Below, piece by piece: positions 1 through 38,033 of a stretch of DNA of 64,000 bases. The translations under genes were made by a program, and so were the position numbers. The stretch is taken from assembly GCF_963675165.1 (NCBI RefSeq), contig NC_087386.1, positions 4,904,169 through 4,968,168 on the forward strand, written 5' to 3'. Numbering within the stretch: the first letter of the stretch is position 1; every line of letters starts with the position of its first letter. This DNA is from Halichondria panicea (Eukaryota > Porifera > Demospongiae > Suberitida > Halichondriidae). A model generated the notes under the pieces. The model did no database searches. It was not told the DNA's origin and saw only the letters and a list, made by a program, of their open reading frames with translations.

Positions 1-346
1 CACTTTTGTCGTAGCCACTGTCACAATTCTCCACGCATTTCCCTTCAACTAATTTATTAGTTATATTGTCAAACGTCACGCAGTGGCATCTAATAACAGA
101 CAGCTGTAGTTCTTCACTGCAGTGGACAGATACGAGATTCTGTAGATTTTCTTTGCAGACACATTTCGTGTTGTTACATTTGGTCCAGAATGGACAATCA
201 ATATCCACTTGACAGTTCTTACCTTCTGTTGTTGCTATTGAAGTATTCTGATTACTGTATTCTTGCATTGCCTCGGCTGAAAGGCTAGCAACCACAGCCA
301 ATAGGAAAGAAACACCTATTAACATTCGAACTCTGAAACCAAACAT
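1..346 (-). CDS. Clade A array gene, 5' part only (window edge)
   Basis: The reading frame starts at an ATG at 346-344 and runs off the left edge after 115 codons. It encodes a hydrophobic signal peptide (MFGFRVRMLIGVSFLLAV), then the family's first Cys module (C-x5-DCPFWTKCNNTKCVC), the SVIRCHC motif and the start of the VEGKC-ENC motif. It is nearly identical to the start of the gene at 7341-9149, including about 160 bp of upstream DNA, so it is a recent duplicate. Whether the rest is intact cannot be seen. The family is a multipass membrane protein of unknown function. Confidence 0.85.
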   Translation of the reverse strand, partial: MFGFRVRMLIGVSFLLAVVASLSAEAMQEYSNQNTSIATTEGKNCQVDIDCPFWTKCNNTKCVCKENLQNLVSVHCSEELQLSVIRCHCVTFDNITNKLVEGKCVENCDSGYDKS

Positions 347-354
347 TCTGAAAC

Positions 355-520
355 TTACAAGTACACATGCAGCTATGGTTCAAGTATACAGTTCTTTGGC
401 AGATCAAATGTCAGCATGTAGAGAGAAGGGCTCTATATATAGCTATATAGCCAACGCTATAATTCAATTTGCTATGTGTCTTTTTGTACACTGAAATATA
501 CACTCCTTCTGCATAACTAT
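355..520 (-). promoter_or_regulatory. Clade A type-1 promoter block
   Basis: This block is shared with the DNA upstream of the gene at 7341-9149 (9165-9320). It contains a TATA-like ctatatatag at about 432-443, roughly 90 bp before the ATG on the minus strand. Conservation between two gene copies may reflect recent duplication rather than selection. Confidence 0.45.
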
Positions 521-1184
521 GAGTACATCTATGGTTTTAGGGATTTATGACAGTACTTCCACCAAACACGAGGGCGGAGCCCATATCAAAACATTGCAAT
601 GTGAAATGTGAAATTAAAATTTTTACCACCCACTCAAATATTTGTGACGTTTTCGCGTGTTTACAACACGAGGATTCTCATGCTTTAATAAATATATCAC
701 GTGTTTTAGAGGTAACAAGCTGGTATTAAAAGTTGTACATGCAGTCCATACCGTTTATACACTCTTATTACATATTATAGCCTTGAGGCATGATTTGGTA
801 AGGGTCGTCATGGTATAAACAACATAATTATAGATATCTCATGCCCATAATGCAACAATCCAAATTGAGTGTAAGAAGGATACAAACGATGTAATGTTGC
901 AAGCTTCCAACAGTTAGCCAATGAAAATTGGCCCTTTCCCCGTTGAAGCCGTCATAATTATGATTATTATAATATAAGGCACTCAACCAACAACTCGTAC
1001 ATTCTACAAACATTAATTATTCTTCAAAATGTTGGTAAAGTTATTGTCAGAGCAAATCTGGTCAATGTAAAGTCACTTCTTCATAGTATCTACTCATAAG
1101 GGATCACAACGCACAAAAGAGCAAATAATTAATAGAGCAACCATAACAACCTATATACAAGTCACTTTCATATCGCCTTATTGT
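521..1184. other. Intergenic stretch, no gene recognised
   Basis: The DNA is AT-rich with only short chance reading frames. No array-type motif, RNA gene or clear repeat was recognised here. It lies where a gene body would be expected downstream of the orphan promoter copy at 1185-1320. Confidence 0.4.
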
Positions 1185-1610
1185 CTTTGATGTGTTGGGC
1201 AAACAGTGCAATCCGTATACAGGTAGCTAAGAGTCTATCATGTTCCAAACAGTTTTCATTGTTTAAGGAATATTGGGAATAGACGTTAGTACCGTTACAG
1301 ATATAATGTACATGTGCAATCAACTGAGCACTCAAAGCTATAATACGCATGGCCACCTTATCTTAATGACCTATGCATGCATGCAGACACTAAGATTCAG
1401 CGCAACGATAATAGATACTGTTGTGAAGAAGGGTAAAAAAAGTACGGGGGGTGGGCTAGTAGAATGCTCATTGAACAAATAATCATAGTTTGTGTACTAT
1501 AGTGCAAAAAGGTATAACATTTACAATCAAGTATACACAATATTAATAACGCTAGAGGCTACACCACAATTTAAATGTTAACTGAGCACTATAATATAAA
1601 GCATTCAACA
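1185..1610 (-). repeat. Orphan copy of the type-2 clade A promoter and intergenic unit
   Basis: Positions 1185-1320 match the blocks upstream of the genes starting at 3486 (3590-3740) and 13864 (13951-14102). Positions 1335-1610 match 14288-14585, including a G-rich tract and the sequence before the tail of the next gene. No gene body follows it on the minus strand before the independent gene start at 346, so it appears to be left over from a deleted copy. Confidence 0.6.
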
Positions 1611-1614
1611 ACAA

Positions 1615-1812
1615 TTAAGGTTGTATAGCCAAGTTCCCAACATTATTGTATGTTTCTTCTGAGCAAATTGGTTCTAAAGGTCGATTCCTTTCTTCGTATC
1701 GCTGTGGATTCACCAGTCTATCAGGTAAAGAGGTCTCAAAGCCTCGTTCTATACTCGCATAGCCCTGCCTCCAGGCTCTGATTCGGGTCATAAACATTGT
1801 TCCTTTTCTAAG
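1615..1812 (-). pseudogene. Severed cytoplasmic tail of the array gene at 1813-3486
   Basis: It is in the same frame as the upstream open frame, separated from it only by a TGA. It encodes the family tail: an R-K basic patch, MFMTRIRAWRQGY, LPDRLVNPQRYEERNRPLEP, then an extra 15 or so residues not found in the paralogues at 7341 and 12035. The preserved frame beyond the stop suggests the nonsense change is recent, or that the stop is read through or polymorphic. Confidence 0.75.
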
Positions 1813-3486
1813 TCAAGACAGTATCCAGTGTATACTGAAGCAGCTAATAATAAGAAGTGGAATAGCTACTACAATAGCACGCAGAATTACTGAAGCACGG
1901 TAAACTGTTTTTGGCCGCAAAGAGTAGAAACTTGTTCCTAGGTTTAGGCTGAGAAATATGCCGAGCAAACCTATGAATAATACATCAATTTTTATACGGT
2001 TCATATCCTTGTATGGTTGTGCAAGCAGTAGTAGAATTATAACGAAGAAAATGATTACCAAACCAAATATATAGTAACTTGAGTCGATGGTGGAGGAATA
2101 GACTAAGACATTTATGTAGCGTAAAATGTAAAACACTGCTGCAAACCATCGATAATCTTTGGTGCCTGGTTGAGTGCCGTTTGTGTAGCAGCTTTGAAAA
2201 GATTCCATGACCTCTTGTAGCAATGGATGACGTAGTTTTAGACAGCTAAGCAATCTCTGAAACCAACGAAACTGATAAATCAACAAAAACAAGATTGGAA
2301 GAATCGCAAACATTGTAGAGCACACTAAAGCAAGAATAGCAAATGGCAGATGCTCTTTTCCACAGTATTCCATTGTTGCATTATAATACAATACCCATGT
2401 AGTTAAATTACCACCACTAATATCCATTGCTTTCACGGGTGTAAGAAGATCAACTGACACGGAAACCATTTTTGTGAATGATAGTAAGAAAAAAGTTGCA
2501 AATGCATCTATCACACTAGTTCTGCTTTCCCAGTTTCTACGAATACGTGAAAAGAGGTAACGAAATGGTATCCACAAGATAACTACTAGTCTGAAGTTTC
2601 TAGCGTGTAGCTCAATTAAGATGTAGGAGACAACTGTCAACAGTAGTGGGTAAATAGCCACTGCATAGTCCAGAGCTGAGACTGTGAGTATGGACACATC
2701 AAGACAAATGTCAGGGTAGAGACCTCTGAAGAAATCTAAGTTCCATATTGAATGCAGGTTAAACATAAAATTAAGGCTGTACTTGACACTGTGTTCATAT
2801 CTATTTATGTATTCTGTGATAAGTCTAGCCATAGCAGGTGTTGCAAGTAACTGGCAATAATTAACAAAACCATGGAGATAAGAAGAAGTCGCACTGATCT
2901 TGAAAAATACCACCACGAAGTAAAATACTGTAAGTGGGCCAAAAGCCACGAGAATATACTTCCAGATATTTCTGTTCCCCTCAGGACATTTCAAACACCC
3001 CATGTCATAAGAGTAAGCCAGTGGAGAGTGTCCAGGTAGACACCTCCCACACAGTCTTCCTGTTCTGTTCCACTTCTCCTCACACATGAACTTGTTTAGT
3101 TGGGAAACATCTTTTGGCAATGGAAGGTACTCACTTTTGCTGTAGTCATTTTCACAATTTTCAATGCAGTATCCTTCAACTAACACATTAGTCATATTGT
3201 CATACGTCACACAGTGGCATCTAATAACAGATAGTTGTAGATTTTCTTCGCAGTGTACTGTTTGGATCTTCTGCAGAACATTTTTGCAGACACATTTCGT
3301 GTTATTACATTCAGCCCAAGGTGAACAATCGCTATTATCTTTACAAGTATTCTTGACAGCTGTTATTATCCCTTTGTAGTGATGAAGTGCTTTACGATTC
3401 TGAATCCTGCCATGTTGTTGATAAGCCATAGCTACGAAACTAGTAGCTGTGAGTATTAATAACACACTAACTATCCTGAAATTCAT
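1813..3486 (-). CDS. Clade A multipass membrane protein, tail lost to a nonsense codon
   Basis: The open frame is 557 codons from the ATG at 3486. It has a signal peptide (MNFRIVSVLLILTATSF), a Cys-rich ectodomain (C-x5-DCSPWAECNNTKCVC, SVIRCHC, LCGRCLPGHSPLAYSYD), then about ten hydrophobic segments from residue 175 or so, including the YPLLLTVVSYILIELHARNF and LLIYQFRWFQRLLSCL blocks. At the point where paralogues read ILSRLRK this gene reads ILS, stop, LRK: CGA in the copies at 7341 and 12035 is TGA here. The result is loss of about 60 cytoplasmic residues after the last membrane segment. The body (VLQKIQTVHC, NYCQLLATPAMARLITEYINRYEHS) is the most divergent of clade A. Function is unknown; it may be a young pseudogene. 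Confidence 0.85.
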   Translation of the reverse strand: MNFRIVSVLLILTATSFVAMAYQQHGRIQNRKALHHYKGIITAVKNTCKDNSDCSPWAECNNTKCVCKNVLQKIQTVHCEENLQLSVIRCHCVTYDNMTNVLVEGYCIENCENDYSKSEYLPLPKDVSQLNKFMCEEKWNRTGRLCGRCLPGHSPLAYSYDMGCLKCPEGNRNIWKYILVAFGPLTVFYFVVVFFKISATSSYLHGFVNYCQLLATPAMARLITEYINRYEHSVKYSLNFMFNLHSIWNLDFFRGLYPDICLDVSILTVSALDYAVAIYPLLLTVVSYILIELHARNFRLVVILWIPFRYLFSRIRRNWESRTSVIDAFATFFLLSFTKMVSVSVDLLTPVKAMDISGGNLTTWVLYYNATMEYCGKEHLPFAILALVCSTMFAILPILFLLIYQFRWFQRLLSCLKLRHPLLQEVMESFQSCYTNGTQPGTKDYRWFAAVFYILRYINVLVYSSTIDSSYYIFGLVIIFFVIILLLLAQPYKDMNRIKIDVLFIGLLGIFLSLNLGTSFYSLRPKTVYRASVILRAIVVAIPLLIISCFSIHWILS

Positions 3487-3489
3487 GCT

Positions 3490-3745
3490 TGTCAGTTTAC
3501 AATTTATGAGTAAATTATTATCTATGCTCTATATAATTACATGTATAATTTATATATGTATACAGTAACTTCTACAATAAAACTTTGATGTGTTGGGCAA
3601 ACCATTCTGAATGTGTGCAATTCGTAGGTAGCTAACAGTCTATCATGTTCCAAACAGTTTTCATTGTTTAAGGAATCTTGGGAATAGAATTTGTACGTTT
3701 GTACCATTACACAGATGTAATGTTGTCACTGTTAAAATATATACA
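3490..3745 (-). promoter_or_regulatory. Type-2 clade A promoter block
   Basis: It is near-identical to 13866-14102 upstream of the gene starting at 13864, and 3590-3740 also matches the orphan copy at 1185-1320. TATA-like AT stretches lie 35-75 bp before the ATG. The match extends into the first 65-70 codons of both genes. Confidence 0.45.
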
Positions 3746-4766: not shown

Positions 4767-5129
4767 GAAACCATGTGCTCCAAGAGAAGACACCCTTACT
4801 GGAATTATTAGTCTTTAATTCTTACCAATAATATTATTAGTTTTTAATTATTACCCATTAGTCTCAATAAAAATCACAACGAGAATTATACTGCAACATC
4901 ACAGACACTTCTAAGGAACTATATTGATCAAAGAAGTCTTAAAAGAGTTAACTGATCTAGTAGTACTACTATAGCACCTTCCATACGTATATACTCAGTA
5001 TTAGCATTACTCATGCTATTGAGGCTAGAGTGCTTCTACAAAATTTGCCTATTAGGCTGGCATAATGCTCAATGCTCCACCACACCTATTAGTCTCAAAA
5101 TTATGCTAGCATAATTGGGCAAGGCCTAG

Positions 5130-6980: not shown

Positions 6981-6987
6981 ATTTAAT

Positions 6988-7056: not shown

Positions 7057-7159
7057 ATAAAAAATTGTACCCACTTAATAAAAATTATACCCCGTTAAAA
7101 TAATTTTTACAACCATACAAGAATGAATTATATGTTAGCTATATCAGTCTAGATATGAC

Positions 7160-7268
7160 GTATTACAATAATGTGGACTGCCCCTCGTGGACACAATGAA
7201 ACAATATCAAATGTAAGTGCAAAGCAAATCTACATTGTTAAAGTCAATCACAGTGTTACACAATGTCA
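7160..7268 (+). pseudogene. Clade B ectodomain relic, opposite strand to the adjacent gene
   Basis: On the plus strand it keeps pieces matching the clade B codons for NNDMDCPPWTECNN-TKCECKANL (aataatgtggactgcccctc, aagtgcaaagcaaatcta). It is a decayed fragment of about 100 bp that lies tail-to-tail with the clade A gene ending at 7341. The same relic sits in the same place after the gene ending at 12035, so it was duplicated together with a clade A gene. Confidence 0.65.
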
Positions 7269-7340: not shown

Positions 7341-9149
7341 TCAAATCGGTTCTAAAAGTCGATTCCTTTCTTCGTATCGCTGTGGATTCACCAGTCTATC
7401 AGGTAAAGAGGTCTCAAAGTCTTGTTCCATGCTCGAATAGCCCTGCCTCCAGGCTCTGATTCGGGTCATAAACATTTTTGCTTTTCTAAGTCGAGACAGT
7501 ATCGAGTAAGTGATGAAGCATGTCACAACAACAAGAGGAAAAAGTGCTACAATAATACGAAGTATTCGCGAGGCATGAAAAATTGTCTTCGGTCGTAAAG
7601 ACTCGAAATTGGTTCCTTGGTTTATGCCTATAAACATGCCGAGTACTCCCAAAGAAAAAATGTCTATTTTGGTATGATTAGGATCCTTGTACGGTTGAAT
7701 AAGCGCCATAATTACCATAAAAAGGAAAATGAGAACAATTGCAAATGTGAAATAGCTAGAGTCGAGCATCGATGAGTACAACATAATATTTATGTAGCGC
7801 GCAATGTAAAACACAGCTGCAAACCATCGAAGATCTTTCGTTCCTGGTTCAATTCCATTCTTGAAGCAGCTCTGGAATGATTCCATGACCTCCTGTAGCA
7901 ATTGATGACGAAGCTTCAGACAGCTCAGCAATCTCTGAAACCAGCGAAATTGATAAATCAATAACAACAACATCGGGAGAATCGCAAACAGTGTGGAACA
8001 TGACAACGCCAAGATGGCATATGGTAGATGCTCTTTTCCAAAATATTCGATCGTTGCATCATAATATAACATCCATGTCACGTTTACTTTCTCGTTTAGA
8101 AGGTTAGCTACTTTCACTGGTGTAAGAAGGTCCACTGAGGTGGTGGACATTTTGACAAAAGAAAGAAGAAAGAAAGTTGCAAATGCATCTATTATAGTAG
8201 TTCTGCTTTCCCAGTTTGTGCGGAAACGTGAAAAGAAATAATGAAATGGTCTCCACAAGATGACTACTAGTCGAAAGTTTCTAGCGTATAGCTCAATCAA
8301 GATGTAGGAGATAACAGTCAATAGTAGTGGATAGATAGCCACTGCATAGTCCAGAGCTAAGATTGTGAGTGTGGACACATCAAGACAAATGTCAGGGTAG
8401 AGACCTCTGAAGAAATCAAGGTTCCAAATGGCATATATGTCTAGAATCAATACAACACATACTCTTATATCTGCAGTAAGACTATGGCTGTATGTGGTGA
8501 CAACTCGAGCAAAAGCAGGTGCTGTAATTAGCTGACTGTAAAATAAAAATCCATGGATATAAGAAGAGGTTGCATTGATCTTTAGCAGTAACACGAAAAC
8601 GTAAAATATTGTTAGTGGACCAAATGCCATGAGAACGTATTTCCAGATATTTCTGTTCCCCTCAGGGCATTTCACACACCTCATGTCATAAGAGTAAGCC
8701 AGTGGAGAGTGTCCAGGTAGACACCTACCACACAGTCTTCCTGTTCTGTTCCACTTCTCCTCACACATGAACTGGTTCAATTGGGAAACATCTGTTGGCA
8801 ATGGAAGGTAGTCACTTTTGTCGTAGCCACTGTCACAATTCTCCATGCATTTCCCTTCAACTAATTTATTAGTTATATTGTCAAACGTCACGCAGTGGCA
8901 TCTAATAACAGACAGCTGTAGTTCTTCACTGCAGTGGACAGATACGAGATTCTGTAGATTTTCTTTGCAGGCACATTTCGTGTTGTTACATTTGGTCCAG
9001 AATGGACAATCAATATCCACTTGACAGTTTTTACCTTCTTTTGTTGCTATTGAAGTACTGTATTCTTGCATTACCTCAGCTGAAAAGCTAGCAATCACAG
9101 CGAATAGAACAGAAACACCTATTAACATTCGAACTCTGAATCCAAACAT
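7341..9149 (-). CDS. Clade A multipass membrane protein, intact
   Basis: Intronless, 602 codons from the ATG at 9149. It has a signal peptide (residues 1-25), an ectodomain with the EB/EGF-like module C-x5-DCPFWTKCNNTKCAC, the SVIRCHCVTF block, several N-x-S/T sites and the pre-membrane motif LCGRCLPGHSPLAYSYDMRC-KCPEG. About ten hydrophobic segments run from residue 170 to 550, with polar loops around NFRLVVILWRPF and GTKDLRWFAAVFYI. The C-terminal tail is basic and ends in RAWRQGY ... NPQRYEERNRLLEPI. From the Cys-rich N-terminus I infer an outside N-terminus and inside tail. No enzymatic motif is visible. Function unknown; a receptor- or channel-like role is only a guess. Confidence 0.92.
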   Translation of the reverse strand: MFGFRVRMLIGVSVLFAVIASFSAEVMQEYSTSIATKEGKNCQVDIDCPFWTKCNNTKCACKENLQNLVSVHCSEELQLSVIRCHCVTFDNITNKLVEGKCMENCDSGYDKSDYLPLPTDVSQLNQFMCEEKWNRTGRLCGRCLPGHSPLAYSYDMRCVKCPEGNRNIWKYVLMAFGPLTIFYVFVLLLKINATSSYIHGFLFYSQLITAPAFARVVTTYSHSLTADIRVCVVLILDIYAIWNLDFFRGLYPDICLDVSTLTILALDYAVAIYPLLLTVISYILIELYARNFRLVVILWRPFHYFFSRFRTNWESRTTIIDAFATFFLLSFVKMSTTSVDLLTPVKVANLLNEKVNVTWMLYYDATIEYFGKEHLPYAILALSCSTLFAILPMLLLLIYQFRWFQRLLSCLKLRHQLLQEVMESFQSCFKNGIEPGTKDLRWFAAVFYIARYINIMLYSSMLDSSYFTFAIVLIFLFMVIMALIQPYKDPNHTKIDIFSLGVLGMFIGINQGTNFESLRPKTIFHASRILRIIVALFPLVVVTCFITYSILSRLRKAKMFMTRIRAWRQGYSSMEQDFETSLPDRLVNPQRYEERNRLLEPI

Positions 9150-9164
9150 TTTGAAACTTACAAG

Positions 9165-10538: not shown

Positions 10539-10644
10539 CCGTACTATACATGCATGCACATGTAATAAATTTCGAGGACATAGACAGTTAAAAAATACAA
10601 GAAATACAAAATTGGAAGAATACTAACAAATCCCATTAGCGCTG

Positions 10645-10972
10645 TGTTTAGCTATCAGTCTGAATCAGTGCATGGAACATAAAATCGAGCAAAAAGACAA
10701 TCAGAAAACAGCAGGGAACAAGAGTAATTTCTGGTTGGGTAAGTAACAGAGGTTGTGCAACAATGACATGGATTGCCCCTGTGGACAGAACAATGTGAGT
10801 GCAAAGAAACTCTGAAAGACCCAAATTTGGCCTCAAATCATGTGCTCGTGGTTTCGTGTCATAGAAATATAAGTGAAACGTATAATACACACTTCCGGGA
10901 GCCTTAGTGTAGACTGTGAATGTGACAAGGTAACACTGTATTACTTGAACTGTCTGTTGTAGACACCGCTGC
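10645..10972 (+). pseudogene. Clade B N-terminal relic
   Basis: It retains the codons for SYQSES (agctatcagtctgaatcag), a decayed CNNDMDCP-WTEQ stretch near 10757-10800 and, near 10943-10972, the ELSV-R-HC block. Stops and frame changes are frequent. It is a duplicate of the relic at 17465-17816, with which it also shares flanking DNA. Confidence 0.7.
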
Positions 10973-11861: not shown

Positions 11862-11970
11862 TGTATTACAATAATGTGGACTGCCCCTCGTGGACACAAT
11901 GAAAGAATATCAAATGTAAGTGCAAAGCAAATCTACATTGTTAAATGTCAATCACAGTGTTACACAATGT
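11862..11970 (+). pseudogene. Clade B ectodomain relic (duplicate)
   Basis: It is nearly the same sequence as 7160-7268, again on the plus strand and again just after the stop of a clade A gene. It documents a duplication that included gene, relic and 3' flank. Confidence 0.65.
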
Positions 11971-13864: not shown

Positions 13865-13865
13865 G

Positions 13866-14585: not shown

Positions 14586-14607
14586 AACATTTTGATTGCT
14601 TCATCGA

Positions 14608-15030
14608 AGTGAATTGGGTCTAAAGGTCGATTCATTTCTGTGTATCGCTGTGGGTTCACCAGTCTATCAGGTAAAAAGGCCTGTACAAGCCTGCATGGTT
14701 GTTCTATGCTCACATTAGCCCTACTGCCGAGACAGTATCCAGTAAGTGATAAGGCATGTCATTGCAACAAGAGGAGAAAGTACAATAATAAGACGCATAG
14801 TATTCGTGAAGCACGAATCATTGAATTATGTCAGAGCATTCAAGGTAGTTGCTGCTAGGTTTCCATGTTCATGTACATATACTACTGATTTTCTCGTGAA
14901 ACAATCTGGTTTTTTATTCTTAATTGTATTGCCTCGGTTGAAAAACTAGCGATCACTGACAATAATATAAAATTATAGAAAAGAAGCACCTATTGACATC
15001 GAGACTCTGAATTCAATTAGCATTTTGAAC
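14608..15030 (-). pseudogene. Clade A relic: tail plus signal-peptide ends, middle deleted
   Basis: On the minus strand, 14934-15030 keeps the decayed signal-peptide codons of the type-1 genes (the sequence around cctcggttgaaaaactagc). Positions 14608-14815 keep the C-terminal tail (LPDRLVNPQRY, EMNRPLDPI) and part of the last membrane segment. The whole central part is gone, so the gene was reduced by a large internal deletion. Confidence 0.7.
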
Positions 15031-15961: not shown

Positions 15962-16354
15962 CAATGGTTTAGTTGGGACACATCTTTTGGCAATGGGAAG
16001 TAATCACTTTTGTCGTAGCCACTGTCACAATTCTCAATGCATTTTCCTTCAACTAACTCATTGGTCATAATTATTGTCAAACGTCACGCAGTGGCATCTA
16101 ATAACAGACAGCTGTAGCTCTTCACTGCAGTGGACAGATACGAGATTCTGTAGATTTTCTGTGCAGACACATTTCGTGTTGTTACATTTGGTCCAGAATG
16201 GGCAATCAGTATCCACTTGACAGTTCTTACCTTCAGTTTTTGCTATTAAAGTATTCTGATTACTGTATTCTTGCATTGCCTCAGCTGAAAACTTAGCAAC
16301 CACAGCCAATAGAAAAAAAGTACCAAAGGACATTCGGAATCTGAATCCCAACAT
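15962..16354 (-). pseudogene. Clade A N-terminal fragment with a 4-bp frameshift
   Basis: It begins at an ATG at 16354 with a good signal peptide and the C-x5-DCPFWTKCNNTKCVC module. The frame then breaks after CVTFDN, where paralogues read gtcatattgtc and this copy reads gtcataattattgtc. The shifted frame continues through VEGKCIENCDSGYDKSDY to the VSQLN-H codons near 15965, where homology stops. No membrane segments remain, so it is a dead gene, at most able to yield a secreted peptide of 98 residues. Confidence 0.85.
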
Positions 16355-17464: not shown

Positions 17465-17816
17465 TGTCATGTTAGCTATCAGTCTGAATCAGTGCATGGA
17501 ATATCAAATTGAGTAAAAAGACGATCAGAAACAGCGAAGAACAAGAGTCATTTCTGGTTGGGTAAATAACAAAGGTTGCATGTGCAACAATGACATGGAT
17601 TGCCCCTGTGGACAGAACAATGGGAACTATTATTACACTATTGAACAGTCTACACTAAGACCCCAAATTTGGCTTCAAATGATGTACTTGTGGTTTTGTG
17701 TCATAGTGAGTAGTTGAAGCGTATAATAGACACTTCCGGCAGTCTAAGTGTAGACTGTGAATGTGACAAGGTACGTGTAACACGATAACTTGAACTGCCT
17801 ATTAACAGATGCCATT
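17465..17816 (+). pseudogene. Clade B N-terminal relic (second copy)
   Basis: It keeps SYQSES codons, a WLGK-type stretch, a decayed CNNDMDCP block near 17587-17625 and the ELSV-R-H block near 17786-17816. Stops are frequent. It parallels 10645-10972, so the two lie on duplicated segments. Confidence 0.7.
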
Positions 17817-18364: not shown

Positions 18365-18605
18365 TTGAATAATGCTAATCATTAATTTGATAATTTTAAC
18401 AGCACTAGTACAATGATACAAGAATGCAAAAACGGACATCTTTTTAATGGGAATAATTGGTTTATACTTTTTTGCTTTGATGAAGCAAAGGAACATCCAT
18501 TTTTACGGCCAGAAATAAAATACCATGTATCAACAACTTCGAGGAGTGTTGTTGCATTTATTCCGCTATTGTACATGACATGTATATGCATGTATATGAC
18601 CACTA
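18365..18605 (+). pseudogene. Clade B relic: last membrane segments
   Basis: It matches clade B codons for the TALVQPYKNA, DIFLMGIIG and ATLRSVVA blocks (for example catctttttaatgggaataa and ccatgtatcaacaact), interrupted by stops. It ends in a decayed MTTN codon block near 18590-18605. The matching tail piece is at 19527-19690. Confidence 0.75.
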
Positions 18606-18903
18606 ACTGAACGAGTGTTGCAAGCGTGCGCTTGCTAATGCCTCTCACCATGTTATGCTTTCGCTCAAAAAGTATTAGAGTGTTTTAGTAGTTTGAATTT
18701 TACATTAAAGTTAGCTTATCTATATAAACCTACTGAAAAGAAAAGACTTGTTTAATTACATGCATATATATTGTTGTTATATCTATTGTATTTATTATGG
18801 TATCATTGTATAGTGTTTTGTGGTCGCAAGAAAGAAGAAAATTGATTCTTCCAGAATCTGGAGTTCAGTGCATATTTATATATATCATAACTGAGAAGAC
18901 AAG

Positions 18904-19526: not shown

Positions 19527-19690
19527 AATCATGAAAAGAATGAGAGAGTATATTAAGCCTAGAGGAGGGGCTATGAGAACATTGAAACAACTTTGAGGAA
19601 ACTTTGCCAGATAGAATCGTTAATCCTGAACACCCAGTTTGTTCAGATGGCAACTGTAGGACTCGATCTATACTCTCCCACTAAATATCA
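19527..19690 (+). pseudogene. Clade B cytoplasmic-tail relic
   Basis: It retains codons for KRMR, RGYENIE, ETLPDRIVNPE, PVCSDGNC and the end before a stop, with frameshifts. Together with 18365-18605 it represents one former gene split by later insertions. Confidence 0.75.
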
Positions 19691-20218
19691 CATACTGATT
19701 TTGCAGTAACTTTTCATTGTATGTATACAATTGATTGCTTTCTAGTTTCAGTGTTTGATTCTAAGCATAATAACATCTGGAGAATGCCTTAATCATGCCT
19801 CGGTGCGCATGCGCAAGCGAAGTATACGGTAGTGTGTTTGTGTGTGTGTGTGTGTAGACTGCTACAGCTGCTCAAGGATCAATGAAGTGCAAGTAAGAGT
19901 TTCTATAGGCTTCTAGTTATGTTTTAATTCGTGGATTTGCAAAATAATGCTTCGTTCTCGAGTTATGCCTAGTTTTGCATACTTGGAATGCCATTGCAGC
20001 CTTTTCAGAAGAGCACGTAGCCAAACTTGTTTACCGAGCATTGCTACTCTACTTAGTAGTTAGCTCTGCACTAGGACCTAGCTATTGGTAGCTGCAAGAG
20101 AGAGAAGAGAGCTGCAAGGCTCTGCTGCGCTGATGCAGCCATTCACTTTAGACGTGAACGTTTGACATAGATCGTTTTTAACAACAATCATGGTTGATCA
20201 TTACCCCATACGGTAGAA

Positions 20219-23628: not shown

Positions 23629-25497
23629 ATGCTAGCCAAGCTGCTGCTAATTTTTGGAATAGCGTCGTCCGTTAGCTATCGGTCTCAATCAGTTAGACAT
23701 GAAAATGATACTATCAATCTGAAATGGCACGAAACAGATACACAGAATTCGTGCAACAATGATATGGACTGCCCTCCGTGGACAGAATGCAACAATACTA
23801 AATGTGAGTGTAAAGCAAATCTAAAGAACTATTACACTATTAAATGTGACGAGGCAATACTTGAACTATCTGTTATCAGATGCCACTGCGTTACATATAA
23901 CAACGTGACAGACGAGTTAGTTGAAGGAAACTGTATTGAGAATTGTGACAATGGCTACGACAAAAGTGACTACCTCCCATTGCCAAAAGATGTTTCCCAA
24001 CTAAACCAGTTCATGTGTGAGGAGAGGTGGAACAGAACAGGAAGACTGTGTGGGAGGTGTCTACCTGGACACTCTCCACTGGCTTACTCTTATGACATGA
24101 GGTGTGTGAAATGCCCTGAGGGGAACAGAAATATTTGGAAGTACATTATCGTGGCTTTTGGACCACTTACAGTATTTTACTTAGTGCTCCTGTTCTTCAA
24201 AATTAATGCATCCTCTTCGTACTTACACAGCTATGTTGTCTACAGCCAACTGATAACAACACCATATATTTTTAGAGCTATAACAGCGTATACTTACCAT
24301 ATATCAACTTACCTAAAATTTACAATTTTAGCACTTGTAGACTTATATTCAATATGGAACCTAGATTTCTTCAGAGGTCTCTACCCTGACATTTGTCTTG
24401 ATGTGTCCACACTCACTGTCTTAGCTCTGGACTATGCAGTGGCTATCTACCCACTACTGTTGACTGTTGTCTCATACATCTTGATTGAGCTACATGCTAG
24501 AAACTTTAGGCTAGTAGTCATCTTGTGGAGACCATTTCGTTACCTCTTTTCACGCATCCGTAGTAACTGGGACAGCAGAACTAGTGTGATAGATGCATTT
24601 GCAACATTTTTTCTACTATCATTCACGAAAATAGCTTCCACTTCAATTGACCTTCTTACACCAACGAAAACAGTTAACCTAAAGAACAACAATGTGACAT
24701 GGGTACCGTACAATGATGCAACAATGGATTATTTTGAAACAAAGCATCTGCCATTTGCTATTCTTGCTATAACATGTTCCATGATATTTGCAATTGCTCC
24801 TATCACAGTGTTGTTGATTTATCAGTTTCGCTGGTTTCAGAGATTGCTGAGCTGTCTAAAACTACGTCATCCATTGCTACGAGAGGTCATGGAATCATTT
24901 CAAAGTGGTTACACAAATGGCACTCAACCAGGAACCAAAGATCATAGATGGTTTTCAGCTGTGTTTTACATAACACTGTATGGAAACATCGTTGTTTATT
25001 CTGCAATACTCGATTCTAACTACATTACTTTTGGAATAATGCTTATTATTAGCTTGATAATTTCAACTGCACTAGTACAACCATACAAGAACGCAACCCA
25101 TGCAAAAATAAACATTTTTTTAATGGGAATAATTGGTCTAATTCTTTGCTTAGATGTACCAACAAATCATCCATCTTTACGGCCAAAAACAGAAAACCAT
25201 GTGTCAGCAACTTTGAGAATTGTTGTTGCAATTATTCCGCTATTATACATAATATGTATGACCACAAACTGGATCCTGAAGTGGATGACGAAAAGAATGA
25301 GAAAAGTGAAAATGTTTATTACCCGAGCAAGAGCCTGGAGGAGAGGCTATGAGAACATTGATAACGACTTTGAGCAAACTTTGCCAGACAGAATCGTTAA
25401 TCCCGAGAATTATCAAGATGAAAATCGACCTTTGGACCCAGTTTGTTCAGATGGCAACTGCACTCGAGCTACTTTAACACAAAATGCAACATACTGA
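23629..25497 (+). CDS. Clade B multipass membrane protein, intact
   Basis: Intronless, 622 residues. Signal peptide 1-16; cysteines at about 42, 48, 54, 59, 61, 73, 85, 87, 102, 106, 130, 141, 144, 159 and 162; glycosylation sequons NNT, NVT, NRT. Hydrophobic segments at about 170-191, 202-222, 229-247, 262-287, 319-345, 373-399, 439-460, 465-484, 493-510 and 527-549. The basic tail (RMRKVKMFITRARAWRRGY) ends DENRPLDPVCSDG. It has Gly instead of the family Cys in FQSCYTN (residue 427). The segment ITTPYIFRAITAYTYH is its own version of the variable loop. A polyadenylation-like aataaa follows 44 bp after the stop. Confidence 0.93.
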   Translation: MLAKLLLIFGIASSVSYRSQSVRHENDTINLKWHETDTQNSCNNDMDCPPWTECNNTKCECKANLKNYYTIKCDEAILELSVIRCHCVTYNNVTDELVEGNCIENCDNGYDKSDYLPLPKDVSQLNQFMCEERWNRTGRLCGRCLPGHSPLAYSYDMRCVKCPEGNRNIWKYIIVAFGPLTVFYLVLLFFKINASSSYLHSYVVYSQLITTPYIFRAITAYTYHISTYLKFTILALVDLYSIWNLDFFRGLYPDICLDVSTLTVLALDYAVAIYPLLLTVVSYILIELHARNFRLVVILWRPFRYLFSRIRSNWDSRTSVIDAFATFFLLSFTKIASTSIDLLTPTKTVNLKNNNVTWVPYNDATMDYFETKHLPFAILAITCSMIFAIAPITVLLIYQFRWFQRLLSCLKLRHPLLREVMESFQSGYTNGTQPGTKDHRWFSAVFYITLYGNIVVYSAILDSNYITFGIMLIISLIISTALVQPYKNATHAKINIFLMGIIGLILCLDVPTNHPSLRPKTENHVSATLRIVVAIIPLLYIICMTTNWILKWMTKRMRKVKMFITRARAWRRGYENIDNDFEQTLPDRIVNPENYQDENRPLDPVCSDGNCTRATLTQNATY

Positions 25498-26037: not shown

Positions 26038-26300
26038 ATGAAGATGCACTACAAAAATGGGAGTTTATACATAGCTATAGGCTGCTGCTAATCTTTACAG
26101 TAGCGTTGTCCGTTAGCTATCAGTCTGAATCAGCTACAAAATCATGCAGAAAAATAATGGGCAGAAAATGACGCGAAACACATGGGTGTATGCATGGTAA
26201 TAAACAGAAGTCATGCAATAATGACATGGACTTCCCCTCGTGGACAGAATGTAACATTACCAAATGTGAGTGCAAAGCAAATCTAAGTTGTCTATGCAGT
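26038..26300 (+). pseudogene. Clade B N-terminal relic
   Basis: It begins at an ATG with MKMHYKNGS codons and the following signal region (with a small insertion, tacatagctataggctg, that breaks the frame). It continues through SYQSESATK, TRNTW, QKSCNNDMD and KCECKANLS (PPW has become SPW with a frame change), and ends abruptly near 26300. An upstream block (ggcaggatattgtacat at 25917) is present, so this was a full gene with promoter. Confidence 0.8.
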
Positions 26301-26364
26301 GTTGCTATATACTCTATACTTAGTAGTTAACTCCGCACTAGAACGCTAAAGCCATACTATTCAG

Positions 26365-27304: not shown

Positions 27305-29215
27305 ATGATGTCTTACACAAGTGAGAATTTAGTCAAGCTGCTGCTAATTTTTACAATAGCGTTTCCCGTTAGCTGTGAGTCTGAATCAATTGTACTTGAA
27401 AACAAGAATGTCAATCAGAAGATGGCACAAAACAAGAGTCATATTAGGTTGGGTAATAAACAGAAGTCTTGCAACGATGATATGGACTGCCCCCCGTGGA
27501 CAAAATGTAACAATACTAAATGTGAGTGCAAAGCAAATCTGAAAAACCATCACACTATTAAATGTGACGAAGCAACACTTGAACTATCTGTTATCAGATG
27601 CCACTGTGTTACATACAACAACGTGACAGACGAGTTAGTTGAAGGAAACTGTATTGAGAATTGTGAAAATGGCTACGACAAAAGTGACTACCTTCCATTG
27701 CCAAAAGATGTATCCCAACCAAACCAGTTCATGTGTGAGAAGAGGTGGAACAGAACAGGAAGACTGTGTGGGAGGTGTTTACCTGGATACTCTCCACTGG
27801 CTTACTCTTACGACATGAGGTGTGTGAAATGCCCTGAGGGGAACAAGAATATCTTGATTTACATTCTTGTGGCTTTTGGTCCCCTTACAGTGTTTTACTT
27901 TGTGCTCCTACTCTTCAAGATCAATGCATTTTCTTTGTACTTACACAGTTACGTTGCTTACAGCCAAATGATTACAACACCATTTTTTGCTAGAGCTATA
28001 ACAGCATATGCTGAGAATGTCTCAACTTATTTAAAGTCTACAATTATAATACTAGCAGATCTATATGGAATTTGGAACCTAGATTTCTTCAGAGGTCTCT
28101 ACCCTGACATTTGTCTTGATGTGTCCACACTCACAGTCTTAGCTCTGGACTATGCAGTGGCTATCTACCCACTACTGTTGACTGTTATCTCCTACATCTT
28201 GATCGAGCTATACGCTAGAAACTTTCGACTAGTAGTCATCTTGTGGATACCATTTCGTTACCTCTTTTCACGTTTTCGTAGAAACTGGGAAAGCAGAACT
28301 AGTGTGATAGATGCGTTTGCAACATTTTTTCTACTATCATTCACGAAAATGGCTTCTACTTCAGTTGACCTTCTTACACCAGTGAGAGTAGTTAACCTGA
28401 AAAGCAACAGTGTGACATGGGTACCGTACAATGATGCGACAATGGAGTACTTTGGAAAAGAGCATCTGCCATTTGCTATTCTTGCTTTAGTGTGCTCTAC
28501 AATTTTTGCAATTCTCCCAATCTTGCTATTGCTGATTTACCAATTTCGCTGGTTTCAGAGATTGCTCAGCTGTCTACACATCCATCATCCATTGCTACGA
28601 GAGGTCATGGAATCTTTTCAAAGCTGCTACACAAATGGCACTCAACCAGGAACCAAAGATCGCCGATGGTTTTCAGTTGCCCATTACATTTTGCGCTATT
28701 CAAACATCATTGTTTACTCTGCAATACTAGATTCTGGCTATATAGTAATGGGACTAGTGTTAATTATTAGCTTGCTAGTTTTGACAGCAATAGTGCAACC
28801 ATACAAGAATGCAAACCACACGAAAACAGACATTTTGTTCTTGGGAATAATTGGTGTGTTTTACTGCTTTGACGAAGCAACAAACCATCCATCTTTACAA
28901 GCAGAAACAGAAAACTATGTGTCAACAACTTTGAGAATTGTTGTTGTAATTATTCCGCTATTATACATAATATGTACGATCACAAACTGGATCCTGAAGT
29001 GGATGAAGAAAAGAATGAGAAAAGTGAAAATAATTGTTACCCGAGCAAGAGCCTGGAGGAGGGGCTATGAGAACATTGATAATGACTTTGAGGAAACTTT
29101 GCCAGACAGAATCGTTAATCCCGAGAATTATCAAGACGAAAATCGACCTTTGGACATAGTTTGTTCAGATGGCAACTGCACTCGAGCTACTCTCCAACCA
29201 AATATCACATACTAA
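27305..29215 (+). CDS. Clade B multipass membrane protein, intact, longest N-terminus
   Basis: The start is the ATG at 27305 (MMSYTSENLVKLLLIFTIAF), 636 residues; the open frame extends upstream only from a TTG. The N-terminal spacer before the first Cys is longer than in neighbours (NKSHIRLGNKQKSC). Cys pattern, SVIRCHC and LCGRCLPG are kept, but HSPLAYS is YSPLAYS and VSQLNQF is VSQPNQF. The variable segment reads YSQMITTPFFARAITAYAEN. The tail matches the 23629 gene closely (KWMKKRMRKV, YENIDNDFEETLPDRIVNP), so tail and body may have separate histories. Function unknown. Confidence 0.92.
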   Translation: MMSYTSENLVKLLLIFTIAFPVSCESESIVLENKNVNQKMAQNKSHIRLGNKQKSCNDDMDCPPWTKCNNTKCECKANLKNHHTIKCDEATLELSVIRCHCVTYNNVTDELVEGNCIENCENGYDKSDYLPLPKDVSQPNQFMCEKRWNRTGRLCGRCLPGYSPLAYSYDMRCVKCPEGNKNILIYILVAFGPLTVFYFVLLLFKINAFSLYLHSYVAYSQMITTPFFARAITAYAENVSTYLKSTIIILADLYGIWNLDFFRGLYPDICLDVSTLTVLALDYAVAIYPLLLTVISYILIELYARNFRLVVILWIPFRYLFSRFRRNWESRTSVIDAFATFFLLSFTKMASTSVDLLTPVRVVNLKSNSVTWVPYNDATMEYFGKEHLPFAILALVCSTIFAILPILLLLIYQFRWFQRLLSCLHIHHPLLREVMESFQSCYTNGTQPGTKDRRWFSVAHYILRYSNIIVYSAILDSGYIVMGLVLIISLLVLTAIVQPYKNANHTKTDILFLGIIGVFYCFDEATNHPSLQAETENYVSTTLRIVVVIIPLLYIICTITNWILKWMKKRMRKVKIIVTRARAWRRGYENIDNDFEETLPDRIVNPENYQDENRPLDIVCSDGNCTRATLQPNITY

Positions 29216-29880: not shown

Positions 29881-30105
29881 AGATGAAGATGCACTATACA
29901 CAAGTGGGAGTTTAGCCAAACTGCTGTTAATTTTCACAATAATTATTGTGTTGTCTGTTAGCTATATCTTTCTGAATCAGCTACCCATAAAAATGAGAAA
30001 GACAATCAAAAGATGACACGAAACAAGTGGATGGGTAACAAACAGAAGTCGTGCAACAATGACATGGACTGCCCCGTCTGTCTGGAAACAGACATTTTGT
30101 TTCTA
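29881..30105 (+). pseudogene. Clade B relic: N-terminus fused to a late membrane segment
   Basis: It starts with MKMHYT codons, a signal region with a frame-breaking insertion, then EKDNQK, NKWMGNK, KSCNNDMDCP. It jumps directly to codons of the late segment ETDILFL (gaaacagacattttgtttct), so the centre has been deleted. The copia-type fragment follows within 200 bp. Confidence 0.8.
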
Positions 30106-34140: not shown

Positions 34141-34301
34141 GTTGTGATGTCATAACACATACACCTAATTTGTCAAGAGAACAAATCATACTAATGAAGA
34201 ACAAATTGCAAAATGATAACTAATATACGTAGTACTGTTATGTGAACTATACCTAGATATAATCACTTGATGTACGTAACTATAGTGTACAGTAAAATCA
34301 A

Positions 34302-34350
34302 AAATGCCTACATCTCTGCAGGCATTACTGTTCATTGAAAGTGTCCTACA
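34302..34350 (+). repeat. Conserved clade B 3' flank block
   Basis: aatgcctacatctctgcagg and cattactgttcattgaaagt lie about 160 bp after the stop. Confidence 0.55.
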
Positions 34351-34629
34351 TCACATTAACTCTATACTTATGTATGTCACCCAATACAACATTCACCTTG
34401 ATGCAAACTATTCCATAGATACAAGAGAGAGAGAGATGCTACCTCGCGGTACAATCAGTGTTTCCTCGCGATTTAATCGAGGCTGTGAGAGGCACAAAGA
34501 AAATAATATTGGAGGTGCTTTATAGATAGTTATGGAGCACCTTTGGACGCAAGCTCCTAAAGAACAAAATAACTGTGTCTTGTGTCTTGGGTGAGATCCA
34601 GAGGGGGTATTTTCTGCCAGCCAATGAAC

Positions 34630-34745
34630 CTAGAGCACTAAAGTACAACCCTCGGCTGGTGACATGCTAATAAAGATCTATGGAGTGATATATTATAGTA
34701 TTTAGCTGGCTAGCAGAGCAACTAACAGGAGCAATAAAACTACTG
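34630..34745 (+). repeat. 5' end fragment of the 0.5 kb interspersed repeat
   Basis: It starts ctagagcactaaagtac with ccctcggctggtgacatg and breaks off after aggagcaataaaac. The full copies are at 9471, 11235 and 15140. Confidence 0.65.
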
Positions 34746-36029
34746 TAGAAACTGGATTATTAGCACTTACTCGAATAAGCGTATCTTTATTTTAAGCGCA
34801 TGCTTAAACTGCAGGTTTTTTGCTCGAATTGAATCGCTTTTCCAATTATACGAAGGATATTAGTGATAATTTAGAATTGATTCAGCTAATTTTATTTATT
34901 TATGAGCTATAGTTAGCTTGTACCGTGCATCGTAGCTATAGTATAGCTGGTGATATCCATCTGGAAGGACTCTCTGGGCATGCTGTTATACCTTGTCTGA
35001 TCATACATGTTGAGAGAATGTGAGACATGGATGAGGTCTTTTTGTTCCAAGTTCCTGGTCAATATGAATGTTTTTATAACAATTATGATGTAAAACGTAA
35101 GAGGCTGGCTTACCTCAAAATTTCCACCAACAACACGAGGCACTGGTAAAGACTGTTTATAAACAATGCCTGCCTGAATGGTCGTCTCTTATGGAGGTTA
35201 TACGGATCCACCCACTTCCGGCCAAACTTATTAATTAGGGGGGGGGGGGGGAAACATGAGTGGTGGTAAGCTGTAGCAATGTTATTTGCGAAAGTTTGTA
35301 GCTCTACTATGGTTGAGCGTGGTATGCAAGGAGAACAGGGTGATAAAGCTAGCTATCATGTCAAGAAAAGGAGTACAGACAACAAGACAATGGTCGATAA
35401 ACCATACAAACCAATTGACCGAATTGTAGATTTATAGAGCTGCACACACATGAAAATGTTTGTCTATTGCACTGATTTCCATATCATGTTTATGTTCAGT
35501 ATCTCTGGAGAGAGAGAGTCTTGTCTCTTTCTGCCTGTGATAGGGAACGGTAGTTTTGCCAACTTTTGTGCCCCCTATTCTTTCTCTTAAGTGTCAACTA
35601 TTAGATATAGAAGAAGGCAATACAATGATAGTCTTGATCCTTTAGAGTGTCTGATTGCACTACCAACAGTGTAGCAGCTCTAACCGTAGCTCAACTTTTA
35701 GCATTTAGCCTACGTATCAAGGTACTTTTTGCCACTCAAACGGCGAACGTGTATAACCACGCCCCTTTTCATGGCTTTTGGCTGGATCCACATAACAGAG
35801 TTTTTAGAGCAACCACTACATTAAAAAGTGAAACGCGGATTGAACTTTTAACCACAAGCATCAAGTCTATGTACGCTGAGCACATGATCTGCTGCCGTTT
35901 CCAATCGCTTTCCTTTCCTAATCTATAATTATGATTATACTAAAAGCTCATACTTTGAGACCTACATAGAGTATACATATAATTATGGTCTATAGCAGCC
36001 CTCTCAAATATTATGATCAGTTCCTCATT
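34746..36029. other. Intergenic, no gene recognised
   Basis: It holds a poly-G run (about 35239-35251) and a 93-codon frame (35647-35928) without signal peptide, domain or repeats, which I do not accept as a gene. Its end (cgtttccaatcgctttcc) recalls the repeat at 29580-29722. Confidence 0.4.
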
Positions 36030-36155
36030 GGCAGGATATTGTACACGCAGTGAAAGCTCAATATGTTCTAAGACATGTTGAAAGTTATTTGAGAGCATAC
36101 ACACAATAAAAAAAAAAACTTATACATGTAGCTAGCCTAACATCATATAGACAAG
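36030..36155 (+). promoter_or_regulatory. Clade B upstream block
   Basis: ttggcaggatattgtacac, gttgaaagttatttgagag and catacacacaataaaa precede the ATG at 36156. It is the most complete copy next to an intact gene, with an A-rich tract before the start. Confidence 0.5.
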
Positions 36156-38033
36156 ATGAAGATGTACTACACAAGTGGAACTTTAGCCAAGCTGCTGTTA
36201 ATTGTCAATATTGCGTTGTCAGTTAGCTATCAGTCTGAATCAGCTACAGATGAGAATGACAATCAGAAAATGACACGAAACAAGTGGATGGGTAAGAAGT
36301 CATGCAACAATGATATGGACTGTCCCCCGTGGACAGAATGTAACAATACTAAATGTGAGTGTAAAGCAAATCTAAACAATTATTTCACTGTTAAATGTGA
36401 CGAGGCACAACTTGAACTATCTGTTATCAGATGCCACTGCGTTACATATAACAACATGACAGATGAGTTAGTTGTAGGAAACTGCTTTGAGAATTGTGAA
36501 AACGGCTACGACAAAAGTGCGTACCTCCCATTGCCAAAAGATGCATCCCAACTAAACCAGTTCATGTGTGAGAAGAGGTGGAACAGAACAGGAAGACTGT
36601 GTGGGAGGTGTCTGCCTGGACACTCTCCACTGGCTTACTCTTATGACATGAGGTGTGTGAAATGCCCTGAGGGGAACAGAAACATCTGGAAGTACATTCT
36701 TGTGGCTTTTGGTCCACTTACAGTGTTTTACTTCGTGCTTCTACTCTTCAAGATCAATGCAACCTCTTATTACTTACACAGTTATGTTGCTTACAGCCTA
36801 ATAATGACAACACCCGTTTTTGCTAGAGCTATAACAGCATACACTAATCATATCTCAACTTACTTAAAATTTACAATTTTAGTACTGGTAGACCTACATG
36901 CGATATGGAATCTAGATTTCTTTAGAAGTCTTTACCCTGACATTTGTCTTGATGTGTCCACACTCACAGTCATAGCTCTGGACTATGCAGTGGCTATCTA
37001 CCCACTACTATTGACTGTTATCTCCTACATCTTGATCGAGCTACATGCTAGAAACTTCAGACTAGTAGTCATCTTGTGGAGACCATTTCTTTACCTCTTT
37101 TCACGTTTCCGTAGAAATTGGGAAAGCAGAACTAGTGTGATAGATGCGTTTGCAACATTTTTTCTACTATCATTTACGAAAATGGTTTCTACTTCAGTTG
37201 ACCTTCTTACTCCAATGAAAACAGTTAACCTAAAGAACAACAATGTGACATGGGTACCATACAATGATGCAACAATGGAATACTTTGAAACAAAGCATCT
37301 GCCATTTGCTATTCTTGCTATAACATGTTCCATGATATTTGCAATTCTTCCTATTATAGTATTGTTGATTTATCAGTTTCGCTGGTTCCAAAGATTGCTG
37401 AGCTGCCTAAAACTACGTCATCCATTGCTACGAGAGGTTATGGAATCCTTTCAAAGCTGCTACACAAACGGCACTCAACCAGGAACAAAAGATCGCCGAT
37501 GGTTTTCAGCTACCCATTACATTTTGCGCTATTCAAACATCATAGTCTACTCAGCAATACTCGATTTTGGCTATATAGTAATGGGATTAGTGTTAATTAT
37601 TAGCTTGCTAGTTTTGACAGCATTAGTGCAACCATACAAGAATGCAAACCGTACGAAAACAGACATTTTGTTCTTTGGAACAATTGGCGTATTTTATTGT
37701 TTTACCGAAGCAATGGAACATCCATCTTTACGGCCAGAAACAGAATACCATGTATCAACAATCTTAAGAAATGTTTTTGCTATTGTTCCAATATTGTACA
37801 TGCTATGTATGACCACAAATTGGATCACAAGAAAAATGATAAAAGTAAAAATGTTTATTACCCGAGCAAGAGCCTGGAGGAGAGGCTATGAGAACATTGA
37901 AGAAAACATTGAGGAAACTTTGCCAGACAGAATCGTTAATCCCGAGAACTATCATGAAAATCGACCTTTGGACCCTATATGCTCAGATGGCATCTGTAAT
38001 GCTCGAGCTACTCTCCCACCAAATATCACATAG
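36156..38033 (+). CDS. Clade B multipass membrane protein, intact
   Basis: Intronless, 625 residues. Signal peptide MKMYYTSGTLAKLLLIVNIAL, spacer NQKMTRNKWMGKKSC, full Cys pattern, LCGRCLPGHSPLAYSYD, then the membrane domain. Own changes are ELVVGNCFENC, SAYLPLPKDASQ and LDFFRSLYPDICL. The variable segment is YSLIMTTPVFARAITAYTNH. The RHYILRYSN-type region and NANRTKTDILF match the 32254 gene. The tail is RARAWRRGYENIEENIEE to PENYHENRPLDPICSDGIC. It is the last array gene; the next gene to the right is VPS13 on the other strand. Function unknown. Confidence 0.93.
   Translation: MKMYYTSGTLAKLLLIVNIALSVSYQSESATDENDNQKMTRNKWMGKKSCNNDMDCPPWTECNNTKCECKANLNNYFTVKCDEAQLELSVIRCHCVTYNNMTDELVVGNCFENCENGYDKSAYLPLPKDASQLNQFMCEKRWNRTGRLCGRCLPGHSPLAYSYDMRCVKCPEGNRNIWKYILVAFGPLTVFYFVLLLFKINATSYYLHSYVAYSLIMTTPVFARAITAYTNHISTYLKFTILVLVDLHAIWNLDFFRSLYPDICLDVSTLTVIALDYAVAIYPLLLTVISYILIELHARNFRLVVILWRPFLYLFSRFRRNWESRTSVIDAFATFFLLSFTKMVSTSVDLLTPMKTVNLKNNNVTWVPYNDATMEYFETKHLPFAILAITCSMIFAILPIIVLLIYQFRWFQRLLSCLKLRHPLLREVMESFQSCYTNGTQPGTKDRRWFSATHYILRYSNIIVYSAILDFGYIVMGLVLIISLLVLTALVQPYKNANRTKTDILFFGTIGVFYCFTEAMEHPSLRPETEYHVSTILRNVFAIVPILYMLCMTTNWITRKMIKVKMFITRARAWRRGYENIEENIEETLPDRIVNPENYHENRPLDPICSDGICNARATLPPNIT

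Follow-up and report, generated by a model that had tools for sequence, protein, structure and literature searches.

The DNA analysed here (the window) is a stretch of 64,000 nucleotides from the sponge Halichondria panicea, bases 4904169-4968168 of contig C10 (NC_087386.1); the genome comprises 39 contigs totalling 131.5 Mb. Positions 1-38033 of the window carry an array of genes for cysteine-rich proteins with many hydrophobic segments. These genes belong to a large family of single-exon membrane-protein genes that is scattered across the genome, and the window contains one of its clusters. Profile comparisons indicate that the window proteins, here called the short type, are homologous in a Cys module and in the multipass membrane core to a second set of proteins, many of them much longer, encoded in the same genome. 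We tentatively suggest that this is a lineage-expanded family of multipass proteins, most likely cell-surface receptors for environmental, microbial or conspecific cues.

The array in the window

The array consists of eight long single-exon frames running from ATG to stop (557–636 amino acids), a fragment at the window edge and 11 relic clusters. A previous reading of the same DNA, made from the sequence only, had described eight intact or near-intact genes, an edge-cut copy and about ten relics, which agrees well with these counts. Its description of the copies as intronless also holds, all eight being uninterrupted single-exon frames, as does its estimate of about 15 conserved ectodomain cysteines (15 are invariant across the eight copies). 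The signal peptide, membrane segments and basic tail that it described can likewise be recognised by sequence reading, as a leader, many hydrophobic segments and a basic tail, and its suggestion of high turnover is supported by the relics and broken copies.

Copies are named by strand (m, minus; p, plus) and start position in the window, and residue numbers refer to p23629 unless stated otherwise. The other seven copies align to p23629 with 64–83% identity. Relics were identified by a protein search outside the frames at E ≤ 1e-3, merging matches less than 400 bases apart; the reversed window, used as a control for this tblastn search, gave 0 matches. The components of the array are as follows.

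1-346, minus: N-terminal portion of one more copy, truncated at the window edge (tblastn match 2-346, 90% identity to m7341)
1813-3486, minus: m1813, single-exon frame of 557 residues, tail missing after an early stop
7341-9149, minus: m7341, intact frame of 602 residues
12035-13864, minus: m12035, intact frame of 609 residues
20343-22166, plus: p20343, intact frame of 607 residues
23629-25497, plus: p23629, intact frame of 622 residues, the reference copy
27305-29215, plus: p27305, intact frame of 636 residues
32254-34140, plus: p32254, intact frame of 628 residues
36156-38033, plus: p36156, intact frame of 625 residues
5920-5994 minus, 7167-7232 plus, 10636-10779 plus, 11870-11935 plus: four short relic spots (tblastn E 8.3e-4 to 1.3e-5, blastn E 1.6e-11 to 2.9e-21)
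14603-14798 and 15964-16354, minus: two relic clusters (tblastn E 2.6e-10 and 6.2e-54)
17466-17633, 18399-18679 and 19557-19696, plus: three relic clusters (tblastn E 5.3e-4, 4.5e-18 and 6.2e-8)
26038-26303, plus: relic cluster (tblastn E 6.3e-18)
29897-30075, plus: relic cluster (tblastn E 3.5e-13)

The edge-cut copy is broken in the genome, where it gives two matches (C10:4903792-4904457 and C10:4902675-4903796) that meet at 4903792-4903796, one of them containing two TAA stops. Tail-like relic DNA accompanies m1813 at window positions 1658-1809.

A tree built with 24 further genomic copies places the minus and plus copies of the window in two sister clades (support 0.986 and 1.000), both nested among other C10 copies and a copy from contig C3 (C-numbers denote contigs of this genome, and L-numbers such as L006 or L026 are labels of loci fetched from it). 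That the two groups are distinct clades had been proposed by the sequence-only reading. The same reading had called the array divergent, with minus copies on the left and plus copies on the right. This is correct inside the window, but the cluster, which spans about 4835 to 4942 kb of C10, continues leftwards in alternating blocks: plus copies at 4864–4895 kb, minus copies at 4900–4918 kb and plus copies at 4924–4942 kb. The window thus shows two of at least three orientation blocks, and the divergent arrangement is in part an artefact of its edge.

Size of the family

The short type occurs at no fewer than 102 loci on 15 contigs, 64 of which have one uninterrupted match longer than 1,400 nucleotides. 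The count comes from the merged coordinates of two genome searches, plus one place from a search with L031 that was assigned by frame length. These searches gave 427 and 417 first-look candidates, of which only 71 and 79 were scored, so the short-type counts are lower bounds. The second set comprises at least 156 places, 138 of them matched by the core and the other 18 only by the short Cys module, and none of them lies within the short-type ranges. Counting broken and partial members, the two sets together therefore occupy at least 258 places; those for which the whole frame is visible are mostly single-exon. The array in the window is one small part of this family, in which relics and broken copies are common.

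Many second-set members lie in frames of more than 1,000 residues. DUF7630 (PF24633) is a functionally uncharacterised Cys module 45 residues long. Searching the genome with it listed 56 places at E ≤ 0.01, and 37 of these lie in frames of at least 1,000 residues; a search with the core of one of the 56 places listed 86 matches, 54 in frames of that length.

Predicted anatomy of the short type

The organisation of p23629, with segment limits read by us from hydropathy and charge, is as follows.

Residues 1-20 (approximately): hydrophobic leader, followed by a variable stretch to 41
Residues 42-129: Cys region
Residues 130-162 (window 24016-24114, plus): membrane-proximal Cys module, common to the β-helix type and probably related to DUF7630
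Residues near 171-190, 198-220, 228-250 (weak), 258-287, 322-345, 375-400, 443-461, 464-483, 495-512 and 524-546: hydrophobic segments
Residues 585-595 (window 25381-25413, plus): tail motif LPDRIVNPENY

After the last hydrophobic segment the tail is basic and then acidic. The basic loops 286-320 and 400-443, together with the basic tail, suggest cytosolic sides, while loop 346-374 would be on the outer side. An N-terminus outside and a basic tail inside require an odd number of spans, so that the weak segment may not span the membrane. We infer nine spanning segments and a weak one (residues 228-250, around W243-N-L-D), which is perhaps re-entrant.

The pattern [DH][RQ]xx[NDH]PxxY occurs in the tails of 29/32 short-type members and in 0/1000 shuffled tails. 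NPxY is an endocytosis motif; it was considered for this tail and rejected, as the spacing here is NPxxY.

Relationship of the short type to the second set

Two second-set places were traced end to end, giving stop-to-stop frames of 1476 and 1183 residues. In both, the N-terminus is a hydrophobic leader, which is followed by an ectodomain of repeats, then by the Cys-rich region and module, and finally by the multipass core. Group-to-group comparison of the short type with the second set using hhalign gave a probability of 99.8% (E 1.4e-29), and a single sequence against a profile across the sets gave 98.9% (E 2.2e-17). The membrane core is matched on its own account, with 96.4% (E 1e-9) for L026 and 89.6% (E 1.9e-6) for L025; the reversed core of L026 gave 0.1% and three locally shuffled versions 0.4–1.7%. 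L031 forms a bridge between the groups, matching one at E 1.8e-37 and the other at E 1.7e-27. Used as the query of a plain search, it finds members of each, among them m1813 (C10:4905987-4907237, E 6.7e-18) and the long-frame place C17:3932959 (E 6.6e-16). In or beside the core there are polar and charged residues conserved in both sets: in L031 numbering, R298 is invariant and N115 and H227 nearly so. By these alignments, the Cys module and the multipass core are homologous between the two sets, which makes them one superfamily.

Within the second set, 6 of 13 tails (L025, L029, L030, L033, L037 and L041) carry a motif LRE[SPL]x[LM], and three more have LRL in place of LRE; it is missing in L031, L032, L035 and L036 and differs from the short-type motif.

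The module resembles DUF7630 in the pattern C...R.G.LCG.C..G...C..C. This family covers 45 residues only and says nothing about the membrane core. Its cut-off of 27 bits was exceeded in 9 of the 56 genome places listed, in five of them only together with frame neighbours. One of 21 short-type members matched it, below the cut-off (E 0.31), and the single second-set proteins scanned were also below.

The ectodomain repeats of the second set resemble Chlam_PMP (PF02415), which reaches or exceeds its cut-off in L026 and L027. A further 16 pieces of ectodomain were sampled from long frames of the core search and the L031 search: L059 and 15 newly fetched loci (a sixteenth, L066, was masked and dropped). 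Ten of the 16 are at or above the Chlam_PMP cut-off, two of them exactly at 20.6; by source, these are 7/7 pieces from the core search and 3/9 from the L031 search. The right-handed β-helix family PF13229 is above its cut-off in 4/16. One piece, L070 (C14:434110-437110), also gave a match to CLP1_N above the cut-off (E 1.1e-8), which lies in the β-helix repeat region and is probably spurious. The short-type members scanned had no match to Chlam_PMP or β-helix models. Loss of the β-helix, with the membrane-proximal Cys region retained, may have given rise to the short type.

Searches for known families

Short-type proteins gave only sub-threshold matches in Pfam (among them EB module, E 0.01, in addition to DUF7630), and NCBIfam and PDB yielded nothing significant for the family. 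The sequence-only reading had recognised no characterised relative, and as far as Pfam, NCBIfam and PDB are concerned this is borne out, but relatives with β-helix ectodomains exist in the same genome. It had also named a match to a known transporter or enzyme family with conserved catalytic residues as one result that would count against it. No significant match to a transporter, channel, enzyme, G-protein-coupled receptor (GPCR) or solved structure was found in these three databases. The fungal TRP family PF06011 was tried and set aside, as no match was above the cut-off and the one weak place in the genome (E 0.22) lies outside the listed members. A weak match of the Cys region to EphA4 in a profile search (E 7.1) is at chance level; Eph receptors are single-pass kinase receptors.

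The seven-transmembrane domain of class C GPCRs, 7tm_3 (PF00003), had no match at E ≤ 1 in three window members, 21 aligned members and 3 + 6 second-set proteins. As a positive control, the same model gave 146 matches at E ≤ 1 elsewhere in this genome, none of which falls on a listed family member when coordinates are compared by eye; a weak one at C11:6626086 (E 0.136) lies inside a frame of 1532 residues. Class C GPCRs were therefore rejected as the family to which the scanned members belong. Many of the class C GPCR matches are themselves in single frames of about 700–990 residues and are clustered (C3:343-435 kb, C4:7234-7298 kb, C17:119-126 kb and others), so that this genome may tend more generally to carry single-exon arrays of receptor-like genes.

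Bacterial, archaeal and viral contigs, searched with two alignments in scans that begin from short peptide patterns, yielded no confirmed relative. Sponge proteomes contain similar sequences, listed as uncharacterised proteins, and invertebrate relatives bear automatic names such as 'outer membrane protein pmp'. A literature search by titles and abstract openings found no description of the family; most subscription journals were outside its coverage, and the family need not be unpublished.

Selection and possible gene conversion

The ratio of nonsynonymous to synonymous substitution rates (dN/dS) was estimated from pooled pairs of the eight window copies. It is 0.38 within the plus clade, 0.37 within the minus clade and 0.33 between the clades, showing purifying selection overall. 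Within the plus clade, the ectodomain segments have values of 0.17 (ectoA), 0.15 (Cys module) and 0.31 (ectoB), and the leader with the variable stretch has 0.75. The cytosolic loop (0.11) and TM6 (0.17) are also strongly conserved; the other membrane segments lie at 0.30–0.50 and the tail at 0.63. The Cys regions of the minus clade are freer than those of the plus clade, at 0.42 for ectoA and 0.50 for the module. Values above 1 are confined to two small segments: EL3 in the plus clade (1.19, 7.8 synonymous sites per pair) and the tail in the minus clade (1.49, 14.5 sites).

Synonymous divergence between the clades is very uneven. It is low in the Cys module (0.09), in the stretch that immediately precedes the module (0.25) and at residues 256-320 (0.29), and ranges from 0.57 to 3.0 (saturated) elsewhere. 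The uniformity is concentrated in two blocks, in which there are few changes for the dN/dS estimates to draw on.

24001-24132, plus: block 1, residues 125-168 of p23629, conserved even at fourfold sites among copies of the C10 cluster and the C3 copy
24394-24543, plus: block 2, residues 256-305 of p23629, with the same pattern at fourfold sites

Comparison of p23629 with the C3 copy, L008, shows agreement at 15/15 and 22/24 fourfold sites in the blocks and at 29/77 elsewhere (Fisher p 4.9e-10), with a longest identical run of 83 nucleotides. For m12035 and L008 the corresponding figures are 15/15, 21/22 and 40/81 (p 4.6e-8). The block limits were set after viewing the data, so that these p values are post hoc, and they are uncorrected for the many pairs. 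The close pair p23629–p36156 is uninformative (p 0.13).

Blocks that are nearly identical at fourfold sites within copies that have otherwise diverged suggest gene conversion. Preferred codons make up a similar share inside the blocks (196/528) and outside them (844/2671), the difference being small. Many distant pairs lack the block effect; exceptions include L006–L010 (5.4e-4), L006–L024 (5.9e-4), L010–L024 (1.7e-3) and m12035–L010 (0.012), which could mean constraint and count against conversion, as does the use of the cluster's codon by C7 and C4 copies in 46/65 comparisons. In the tree L008 groups as sister with L009, a copy from C10 (support 1.000), and may therefore have moved to C3 after the blocks became uniform. 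The simplest reading of these alignments is gene conversion within the clade, although constraint or older conversion may contribute.

Possible functions

A surface receptor fits best with the combination of leader, Cys-rich outer part, large conserved core, motif in the tail, two kinds of ectodomain and turnover, and we put it forward tentatively, as an interpretation that has somewhat less than an even chance of being right. The proteins would be exported to the cell surface with the Cys-rich part outside; binding of a ligand at the outer face or within the helices would change the core, and the tail motif would dock a cytosolic partner. Tandem duplication, dispersal, gene conversion and decay would all alter the repertoire. 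The sequence-only reading, whose interpretation is partly supported overall, had likened the array to chemosensory or self-recognition receptor clusters, and as an analogy this is plausible.

Several observations weigh against this interpretation, or against a hypervariable recognition role in particular. No well-sampled segment has dN/dS above 1 in these pooled (not site-wise) estimates, which give no sign of positive selection in the ectodomain; a conserved Cys-rich ectodomain with dN/dS below 1 is unlike a hypervariable self-recognition receptor. The tail pattern has exceptions in m1813, in which the tail is missing, L043 (one change) and L046. It was found in 0/13 second-set sequences, some of them cut, which makes a single cytosolic partner common to both sets doubtful. 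Nor are the β-helix repeats uniformly clear: Chlam_PMP is weaker in 5 of the 16 ectodomain pieces (E 0.0072–0.077), and L075 has no such repeat at E ≤ 0.1. AlphaFold2, run on the eight window sequences, gave a confidence (predicted local distance difference test, pLDDT) of 34 for the whole protein and 37 for the core. These models were uninformative and were not used for a fold search, so the topology is that given by hydropathy and charge only.

The core could instead belong to a transporter or ion channel of a new type, or to an enzyme, capped by the Cys-rich part, in which case the weak W-N-L-D segment and the invariant Cys that follows it would be a pore or substrate loop. About ten hydrophobic segments are more than a seven-transmembrane receptor has, and the conserved R298, N115 and H227 would suit such a core, but with no match near significance in Pfam, NCBIfam or PDB, and a lone weak place for PF06011, we regard this as unlikely. 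A role in adhesion or aggregation, for which the chances appear slim, would have the long β-helix forms binding surfaces or cells, with the short forms as regulators or partners and the core as an anchor. Chlamydial Pmps, whose Chlam_PMP repeats are the point of likeness to the second set, are described as having a role in adhesion and as being autotransporters (PMC11166332). The Pmp repeat model does not include the multipass core, however, and a core of about ten segments, conserved together with its polar residues and followed by a conserved tail motif, exceeds what an anchor needs; moreover, the scanned short-type members are without the repeats.

It is also conceivable, if rather improbable, that copy number reflects drift in a duplication-prone intronless gene with little repertoire function, most copies being redundant. 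The common relics and broken copies, the uniform blocks and the lack of well-sampled segments with dN/dS above 1 would be expected, but 64 of the 102 short-type loci keep their long uninterrupted match, and the pooled dN/dS of the window copies is well below 1. Divergent relatives of class C GPCRs, with a Cys-rich module before the membrane domain, would have the order of parts described for that class, namely ANF, NCD3G and 7TM (seven-transmembrane domain) (PMC12716839). The Dictyostelium receptors GrlP, GrlQ and GrlR provide a parallel to the second set, since their N-termini are described as containing a region homologous to the Chlamydia polymorphic membrane protein, placed before a multipass receptor (PMC1885808). 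They are classed as family 3 GPCRs, whereas the core here is unmatched by 7tm_3; the likeness considered is one of described layout. As the 146 genome matches to 7tm_3 are other genes by coordinates, and hydropathy suggests about ten segments rather than seven, this relationship is very unlikely.

A more ambitious form of the receptor interpretation, and a speculative one that we think is probably wrong in full, is that the at least 258 places represent an undescribed receptor superfamily with a non-GPCR multipass core and either a β-helix ectodomain resembling bacterial adhesins or a short Cys-rich one, kept partly uniform by conversion, perhaps across contigs. It would be the animal's main repertoire for microbes, food or kin, possibly acting through a ligand-gated pore at W-N-L-D.

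If the receptor interpretation is true, the family is among the larger protein families of this genome and constitutes an unannotated surface repertoire in a lineage whose recognition systems are poorly known. Hundreds of genes could then be addressed through the one common core as a testable target, and the existence of two kinds of ectodomain would show how a repertoire may swap or lose its outer part while the membrane machine is retained. Even if the function proves to be humbler, a core of about 400 residues that has no Pfam model and no sequence match in PDB merits a family entry and a structure.

Other features of the window and genome

Beside the array, at 49–52 kb on the minus strand, two separate frames match the middle region of VPS13 (51435-51827, E 3.6e-9; 49086-49421, E 1.6e-3), both below the curated cut-off. 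They are probably pieces of a VPS13-like gene with introns, so that the neighbourhood is not intronless throughout. The remaining observations are listed below.

41522-41752 and 56108-56338, minus: two tandem pairs of tRNA-Ile genes (anticodon GAT), 156 bases apart within each pair; the two places lie 14.6 kb apart and share a 241-base unit at 96% identity
46416-47162, minus: open frame of 248 residues that has a leader as well as a Cys-rich domain resembling VWC (E 6e-4, sub-threshold)
63722-63904: a 117-base stretch with an exact self-match at a shift of 66 bases

Outside the window, a search for the c subunit of ATP synthase gave no copy that is clearly mitochondrial. L052 (C9:2570213-2570782) is a cathepsin-like frame, one of ten cathepsin loci fetched, with an unclear exon border. 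It has Ser at the position expected for the catalytic Cys (SSWAF), a replacement that is a trait of silicateins.

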